From positions 1 to 6,303 of the forward strand of contig JAGUYV010000232.1 in assembly GCA_020061125.1 (NCBI GenBank): a DNA stretch of 6,303 nucleotides, written 5' to 3'. Positions within the stretch are counted from its first letter, which is position 1, and every line of letters starts with the position of its first letter. The position numbers were made by a program, and so were the translations under genes. Below, piece after piece: positions 599 through 6,303 of this stretch. The DNA is from a bacterium. GTDB taxonomy: Bacteria; UBP15; UBA6099; DSWB01. The notes beneath the pieces were generated by a model. That model saw nothing but the letters and a program-made list of their open reading frames with translations. It made no database searches and was not told the origin of the DNA.

Positions 599-691
599 GT
601 AAATAAAATAATCACTGCGGCACTGATGAAAAACCGGATACGGGGCTGTTGAGCAACACCTTCAAAAGTTGCATAAAGACGCAAAAGCAGC

Positions 692-740
692 AAAAAACGG
701 GGACTGGGAACGCGGCGAATTTCCGCGTGCCTGTCCCTGT
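692..740 (-). terminator. REP-like GGGAC/GTCCC hairpin with a T-run, candidate terminator of the tail cluster
   Basis: The plus-strand arms 697-715 (ACGGGGACTGGGAACGCGG) and 723-740 (CCGCGTGCCTGTCCCTGT) pair imperfectly around a seven-base loop. CGCGG/CCGCG and GGGAC/GTCCC are the solid blocks, separated by mismatches and one bulge. Read on the minus strand, the hairpin is followed directly by GTTTTTTG (699-691), giving the stem-plus-U-tract form of an intrinsic terminator. It lies about 150 bases downstream of the stop of the 267-residue gene and would insulate the tail cluster from the portal-like gene. The GGGACxGG core also resembles dispersed REP/RAYT-type palindromes of environmental bacteria, so this may be a mobile hairpin acting as a terminator. 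No U-tract is present in the plus direction. Confidence 0.5.
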
Positions 741-750
741 ATAAAAGCGC

Positions 751-784
751 GACATAAATAAAACTTCGGGATGACATAAATAAA
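751..784. repeat. Direct repeat GACATAAATAAA, two copies 22 bp apart
   Basis: GACATAAATAAA occurs identically at 751-762 and 773-784, a 22-bp period that would place both on the same face of the helix (two turns). The second copy also forms part of a dyad: CATAAA (775-780), nine bases, TTTATG (790-795). The block lies just upstream of the plus-strand sigma-54-type promoters, and between the tail stop and the hairpin on the minus strand. Paired, helically phased sites suggest binding by a regulator, but no known regulator motif is recognised. Confidence 0.4.
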
Positions 785-842: not shown

Positions 843-859
843 TTGGCACGGGTTTTGCC
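843..859 (+). promoter_or_regulatory. Sigma-54 (RpoN)-type promoter, upstream copy
   Basis: TTGGCACG-GGTT-TTGCC matches the sigma-54 consensus YTGGCACG-N4-TTGCW at every defined position except the last, with exact -24/-12 spacing. Expected transcription start is near 869 on the plus strand. It is the first of two near-identical elements 35 bp apart. No open frame with a credible ribosome binding site starts downstream. The transcript would run into the 3' end of the opposing 267-residue gene. Confidence 0.5.
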
Positions 860-877
860 TGTGGGCGGCTGGTGCTG

Positions 878-894
878 TTGGCACGCTCTTTGCT
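878..894 (+). promoter_or_regulatory. Sigma-54 (RpoN)-type promoter, full consensus match
   Basis: TTGGCACG-CTCT-TTGCT, followed by ATA, is a complete match to the sigma-54 consensus YTGGCACG-N4-TTGCW, with GG and GC at the exact -24/-12 spacing. Expected start is near 904 on the plus strand. The -12 box overlaps the TAG stop of the convergent 267-residue gene (893-895), so RNA made here would be antisense to the tail cluster. Sigma-54 promoters need an ATP-driven enhancer-binding protein acting from upstream, and the AT-rich repeats at 751-795 are within reach. Functional use is inferred from sequence only. Confidence 0.6.
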
Positions 895-6063: not shown

Positions 6064-6303
6064 TGGCCGTCTCCCGTCTTCCGTCTTCCGTCTTCCGGGA
6101 AGACAAAGGCAAAGGCAAAGGACACCGCGGAGACGCGGAGGCGCGGAGGTGCTCGGAGAACGCAGGGGAAACTTCGGTCATTGAGTCATAGATGCGTTGC
6201 AGGGTGCGGCGGGTGCGCGTGGCCACGAACAGGGCCTGGGCATAGTGTTGCATCCAGTTTTCGCCCATTCCCGCGGCCGCGCGCAGGGCGTGGCATGTGC
6301 GGC
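6056..6303 (-). CDS. C-terminal end of an unrecognised gene upstream of the tail tip gene (partial)
   Basis: The minus strand is open from the window edge to a TGA at 6058-6056, giving 81 complete codons with no stop. The visible protein reads RTCHALRAAAGMGENWMQHY, then AQALFVATRTRRTLQRIYDS and MTEVSPAF, a basic, probably helical segment. It continues into a low-complexity end (PRCPLPLPLSSRKTEDGRRE) encoded by the composite repeat at 6067-6149. An internal ATG at 6268 could be a start, but the frame stays open upstream and no good ribosome binding site is seen, so I read it as the tail of a longer gene. It overlaps the tail tip gene by eight bases, which suggests coupling. In lambda-like order this place is held by tail tip assembly genes (K, I), but the sequence does not resemble what I know of them. 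Confidence 0.6.
   Translation of the reverse strand, partial: RTCHALRAAAGMGENWMQHYAQALFVATRTRRTLQRIYDSMTEVSPAFSEHLRASASPRCPLPLPLSSRKTEDGRRETANG
6067..6149. repeat. Composite low-complexity repeat: 4 x 7 bp, 3 x 6 bp, 3 x 8 bp
   Basis: Three tandem arrays of different unit length sit side by side. CCGTCTY occurs four times at 6067-6094. AAAGGC occurs three times at 6105-6121 (last copy incomplete). CGCGGAGR occurs three times at 6126-6149. Between the first two lies a perfect palindrome, GTCTTCC-G-GGAAGAC (6090-6104). The block encodes the last residues of the upstream gene and also supplies the ribosome binding site of the tail tip gene. Similar GTCTTCC and CGCGGAGACGCGGAGG strings are, from memory, common intergenic dispersed repeats in some large environmental bacterial genomes. 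This block may therefore be an inserted host repeat. Confidence 0.75.
6070..6075 (-). promoter_or_regulatory. Ribosome binding site of the tail tip gene, inside a tandem repeat
   Basis: On the minus strand GGGAGA lies six bases before the ATG at 6063-6061. It is the last, degenerate unit of the 7-bp array (GAGACGG where other copies read AAGACGG). The single changed base in that copy creates the GGGAG core, so the repeat itself appears to supply translation initiation for the 1456-residue protein. Confidence 0.55.

Follow-up and report, generated by a model that had tools for sequence, protein, structure and literature searches.

A tandem pair of sigma-54-type elements in phage DNA as a candidate member of a proposed, recurring class of viral promoter clusters

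Two sigma-54-type elements stand in tandem on the plus strand of the window, which is the whole stretch of 6,303 nucleotides analysed here and the entire contig C169 of a 4.1-Mb genome bin of 513 contigs. It is very probable that both are true elements of the sigma-54 type and that the DNA carrying them is that of a phage. With moderate confidence, the pair is read as a phage or prophage sigma-54 promoter cluster that belongs to a recurring viral class and is served by the RpoN of the host. A wider proposal is put forward more tentatively, namely that many uncultivated phages share near-perfect sigma-54 clusters in order to use or soak up host RpoN polymerase as infection begins, a host enhancer-binding protein being needed for activation; the window would hold one such cluster, which would belong to a phage whose bacterial host phylum is sparsely sampled and would point across the phage's own tail genes. 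Phage sigma-54 promoter clusters apparently constitute an undescribed class, and no description of them was found in the open-access papers searched. The features of the window are collected in Table 1.

Table 1. Positions of the elements, genes and other features in the window.
Feature	Position	Strand	Remarks
Probable portal protein start, first 111 codons, cut by contig end	2..334	minus	weak match: phrog_156, profile positions 6-94, E 0.004
Hairpin with six U after it, probably the tail-operon intrinsic terminator	675..750	minus	fold -25.6 kcal/mol, z -2.5
Two exact GACATAAATAAA copies, 22 bp apart, 12-bp direct repeat	751..784	plus	upstream of both predicted starts, at distances of 97-154 bp
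Element 1, TTGGCACG-GGTT-TTGCC	843..859	plus	predicted start near 870; only the last -12 position off consensus
Element 2, TTGGCACG-CTCT-TTGCT	878..894	plus	predicted start near 905; full match to TTGGCACGNNNNTTGCW
Tail-end gene, 267 aa	893..1696	minus	overlaps the end of J; stop codon shares bases with the -12 box of element 2
Central tail fibre / host-specificity protein J, 1456 aa	1693..6063	minus	phrog_31 E 4e-63; Phage-tail_3

Both elements have the GG-N10-GC spacing of sigma-54 promoters (tested as TGGCAC-N5-TTGC), whose bacterial -24/-12 consensus is said to have been given by Barrios and colleagues in 1999. The original prediction had placed two such elements 35 bp apart on the plus strand, the second a full match to the RpoN consensus; its coordinates and sequence proved exact, the distance from element 1 to element 2 is exactly 35 bp, and the full match was confirmed against TTGGCACGNNNNTTGCW. 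When the genome was scanned with exact patterns, TTGGCACGNNNNTTGCY was found twice in the whole 4.1-Mb assembly, and both occurrences are this pair. From base composition, TTGGCACG-N4-TTGC would be expected by chance about 9e-4 times singly and 3.5e-9 times as a pair within 60 bp in the window, and 0.56 times singly and 2e-6 times as such a pair in the 4.1-Mb genome, which bears out the claim that a chance pair is very unlikely. An origin of the pair by 35-bp tandem duplication was considered but found no support, since the repeat detected covers just the 17-bp element. By the definition proposed, a non-coding phage gap contains a cluster where at least two TTGGCACG-N4-TTGC elements occur within about 60 bp, and the pair has this form, lying in the 558-bp non-coding gap between the tail-end gene and the portal start (335-892).

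All recognised genes in the window are phage-like and on the minus strand. The pair faces away from the probable portal gene, as the clusters of other phages often do with regard to packaging genes, but what lies ahead of it is the tail module with its 3' end; its predicted direction, facing the opposing tail genes, and the overlap of the second -12 box with the last tail-gene stop codon are both confirmed. The tail-end gene is regarded as real because a gene with 28% identity directly follows J in the related genome G003 (contig C97), where the order of J and the tail-end gene is the same as in the window and the contig ends inside the homologue. Except for this distant homologue, no relatives of the tail-end gene were found in the viral and cellular collections. 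Plus-strand ORFs past the pair were rejected as antisense shadows of this real minus-strand gene, in agreement with the prediction that no plus-strand gene is evident there. No same-strand gene was found within about 300 bp 3' of the pair, where just minus-strand tail genes follow, and this lowers the standing of the pair as the promoter of a gene, not its standing as a sigma-54 site. J has a relative at 91% on an IMG/VR contig (L019) that ends within J, short of the junction between the tail-end gene and the pair, and a second relative at 43% likewise stops before it; among the relatives of J and of the tail-end gene, none with the same junction was found. The minus-strand order of tail end, 558-bp gap and portal start would be in keeping with a phage genome that is circularly permuted or has an unusual gene order, or else with a contig join. 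Between the tail genes, CCGTCTTCCGTCTTCCGGGAAGACAAAGGCAAAGG-type intergenic blocks occur in the window (6064-6150) and in L019 (5700-5750, 6270-6310 and 7300-7330), and in both phages they extend the reading frames that they abut.

Upstream of the pair, the location of the two GACATAAATAAA copies suits an activator-binding site, for which they could be a candidate, and no further GACATAAATAAA was found in the genome. The hairpin of the probable tail-operon terminator is a copy of a host-dispersed repeat with seven or more further copies in the bin, which argues that the contig belongs to the host lineage and is not a stray. This repeat (window 682-740) is of the GGGGACTGG...CCTGTCCC type and REP-like, and was apparently recruited here as the terminator of the tail operon. 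In a similarity search with the gap DNA the host-dispersed hairpin repeat alone was matched, and an Rfam search gave no match.

The host bin appears equipped to serve such sites. The original prediction had asked whether the host encodes rpoN, and the gene is present in the bin (PF04552, E 2e-33), together with 19 matches to PF00158 activator domains, of which 14 are strong and extend over almost the full length. A bin with sigma-54 and about 14 strong enhancer-binding-protein domains implies that such sites can work in the host. The relaxed pattern TGGCACNNNNNTTGCW occurs seven times in the genome, several times upstream of genes such as response regulators, and one of these sites precedes a frame that starts like a PII gene and is cut by the contig end.

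The tandem design itself is concentrated in viruses. A wide search for TTGGCACGNNNNTTGC twice with 10-40 bases between found at least 120 viral contigs in IMG/VR, while the reversed TTGGCACGNNNNTTGC tandem, used as a control in IMG/VR, gave 0; in 386 bacterial genomes the wide pattern was found in this window alone and in none of the 385 others. For complete counts the gap was narrowed to 18-20 bases (elements 34-36 bp apart), and this pattern occurs in 13 uncultivated virus contigs in IMG/VR and in 0 of 84,980 bacterial and archaeal genomes (257 Gb). Under equal rates, a 13:0 split has a probability of about 2e-8 if the viral collection, whose size in bases is not stated, is assumed to hold 90 Gb. 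Strong tandem sigma-54 elements thus emerge as a viral feature, and the earlier statement that sigma-54 control of a phage structural region would be unusual needs revising, as the tandem design recurs in many phages. The cluster loci among the matches listed are IMG/VR L020-L139 and L146-L152; also among the matches listed, 114 viral regions fall into 74 sequence groups, the clusters being partly related.

The viral elements behave like true sigma-54 sites. Among the matches listed, A or T follows TTGC in 93%, although it is absent from the search pattern, and a purine follows CACG in 78% of the viral elements. Around the pairs among these matches, TTGC stands at exactly offset 12 in 104 of 144 further TTGGCAY and hardly ever at other offsets; on the opposite strand it does so in 59 of 88 TTGGCAY, again among the matches listed. 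In whole virus records, TGGCAYRNNNNTTGCW is present in 36 of 38, with up to 24 per record, and its reversed control occurs once across all 38. The clusters of uncultivated phages comprise from two to about a dozen near-consensus elements; in record G405 ten copies follow one another head to tail at distances of 26-46 bp, and in record G402 the elements alternate regularly between plus and minus. When related gaps are grouped, conservation in the two largest groups is higher for the boxes than for N4 and the flanks (0.79 versus 0.60/0.57, and 0.98 versus 0.65/0.65), a difference that is partly built in, given that the group members were chosen by the motif itself. Face-to-face palindromes hold 47 of 302 strict sites among the matches listed. 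A palindromic form, TTGGCACG...TTGC-N3-8-GCAA...CGTGCCAA, is found in L051, L037, L070 and others, and simultaneous occupancy of both halves is impossible. The spacings between elements show no regular pattern of helical phasing.

The surroundings of the clusters were examined with gene calls from a simple codon-usage gene caller. Among the matches listed, 100 of 104 pairs are intergenic, the window included, and 60 of the 68 clusters with genes on both sides face a plus gene, against eight that face a minus gene. Of these 68 interior clusters, 49 are surrounded by a divergent gap, the median gap being about 970 bp, and the next plus gene lies within 300 bp in 21 of 60, both among the matches listed. 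The far-side genes that were identified serve packaging and lysis (terminase, portal, endolysin), and those identified on the near side include an integrase (L112) and an anti-restriction gene (L087); one would expect promoters for incoming or early genes in such a position. The window is atypical of the class in its antisense placement, as its minus/minus context is shared by just six of the 68 interior clusters among the matches listed, the window counted. In L050 and relatives, the first gene of the minus-strand packaging operon encodes a conserved AT-hook protein of about 130 aa (GRGRPRK motif) without a PHROG family, which precedes endolysin and terminase and may be a small terminase subunit. 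Cultured phages carry similar elements as well. In Vibrio phage 11895-B1, about 20 bases separate the end of TTGGCACGATTCTTGCG from the start codon of VPHG_00186, a non-coding gap of 670 bp in Pseudomonas phage SYP contains a palindromic element, and both the T5-like Vibrio phage KIT04 and 11895-B1 have sigma-54-like sites in non-coding regulatory gaps. A blastn match in Vibrio phage D419 was weak, imperfect and inside an annotated ORF, and was excluded from the evidence.

No transcription starts at a sigma-54 promoter before nitrogen status, envelope stress, motility or similar signals have switched on a host activator. In the mechanism that we favour, phages would set their elements in a long non-coding gap, often beside the packaging (late) operon and facing the genes on the other side. 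RpoN holoenzyme and an enhancer-binding protein, both from the host, would serve the phage-borne pair; the host would have to supply them because neither rpoN nor PF00158 was found in any of the array-bearing virus records searched, some of which may be fragments. Sigma-54 polymerase would wait at the cluster as a closed complex and fire once the host activator is switched on, and phage transcription would thereby be coupled to the state of the host. Since no plus-strand gene adjoins the pair in the window, its transcripts, with starts at about 870 and 905, would enter the tail module in the antisense direction. We infer that the pair would be bound, activated and transcribed, and would do the same job as the clusters elsewhere. 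Counted against this reading are the palindromes and the many opposite-strand sites, which are odd for simple promoters, together with the minus gene that the pair faces and the long distances to the next plus gene in many clusters.

Several other explanations have been weighed, and the likelihoods given to them and to the favoured reading overlap in part. The pair may be a displaced promoter that once drove a plus-strand gene, for which the 3' end of the tail module was substituted by module exchange or a contig misassembly, leaving the pair with no role or with read-through alone. The prevalence of a following plus gene in the other clusters (60 of 68 among the matches listed) fits such a history, and so does the coincidence of the tail-gene stop codon with the -12 box, which is typical of a module border; the contig is also short (6.3 kb) and no relative with the junction was found. 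However, both elements are still near-perfect, whereas a relic would decay with time, and the intact tail-end gene and J keep their order in G003, which leaves displacement rather unlikely.

Sigma-54 closed complexes are stable without an activator, and the clusters could act as decoys, in which near-perfect sites hold RpoN polymerase in closed complexes, away from host promoters, with no need of a 3' gene. The ten-copy array, the strand alternation and the palindromes described above all agree with this idea, as do the lack of a viral activator in the records searched and of a gene downstream of the window pair. In addition, most E. coli sigma-54 sites appear transcriptionally inactive (PMC4591121). 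The co-directional gene that most clusters face (60 of 68 among the matches listed) would be unneeded for a decoy, though, and two sites as in the window would make a weak sponge unless the phage copy number were high. A decoy role is accordingly judged unlikely.

The original prediction held that the product would be an antisense or regulatory RNA and that it would link late structural gene expression to a host regulator. A functional antisense RNA against the tail operon is favoured by geometry, the predicted starts lying opposite the minus-strand operon, and the gene faced is on the minus strand in a few other clusters as well. Beyond geometry, nothing was found in favour of antisense control of the late structural genes. 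The fold of the plus-strand leader is not above chance (z -0.02), no plus-strand terminator that would define a small RNA was found in the 1.5 kb beyond the predicted starts, and the context is unlike the one usual for such clusters, which mostly face a co-directional gene. An antisense product is thus not supported and seems quite improbable.

Still less probable is that the elements are look-alikes and serve either as operators for a regulator that the phage encodes or in replication or packaging, as the palindromic forms and the arrays adjoining packaging genes might suggest. Against this stand the exact -24/-12 spacing, the purine after CACG, the A/T after TTGC, the unconserved N4, the C/T and G/A variants typical of sigma-54 sites, and the position of the 11895-B1 element just before a start codon. 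Chance matches are the least likely explanation. A single sigma-54-like site can turn up by chance in 4 Mb (0.56 expected), but the genome-wide expectation for a pair is minute and the design recurs virus-specifically.

To conclude, phage transcription is usually explained by the main sigma factor of the host or by phage-encoded polymerases and sigma factors. The findings suggest that many phages may tap a host regulatory switch that is not normally linked to phages. If phages use sigma-54, they would sense the physiological state of the cell before they act, or would disarm a regulon in control of the cell surface through which they enter. The specificity of the motif makes the class findable from sequence alone, and the cultured carriers (Vibrio phage 11895-B1 and Pseudomonas phage SYP) make the idea directly testable.

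Among known systems, phage early promoters for the sigma-70 polymerase of the host, such as those of the T5 pre-early region, are strong and lie in non-coding regulatory gaps. The elements described here likewise lie in non-coding gaps, but they are of the sigma-54 type and would hence be activator-dependent. They share with the RpoN promoters of bacteria, generally surveyed by Francke et al. 2011 (PMC3162934), the boxes, the GG-N10-GC spacing and the flanking preferences, and the host bin has single copies before its own genes; in phage DNA, by contrast, they are tandem near-perfect copies, and the exact 34-36 bp tandem is absent from all 84,980 bacterial and archaeal genomes searched. The orphan and antisense sigma-54 sites of E. 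coli are single, mostly within host genes and mostly silent without an activator, with selection on the box positions only (Bonocora et al. 2015, PMC4591121). The phage sites resemble them in lying away from or antisense to genes, but are clustered and intergenic where those of E. coli are single and mostly intragenic. The phage shock response (pspA, PspF, sigma-54) is a known link between phages and sigma-54. Prophage effects on the RtcR operon (PMC9879122) are another. In both of these systems the promoter is that of the host, whereas here it is phage-borne.
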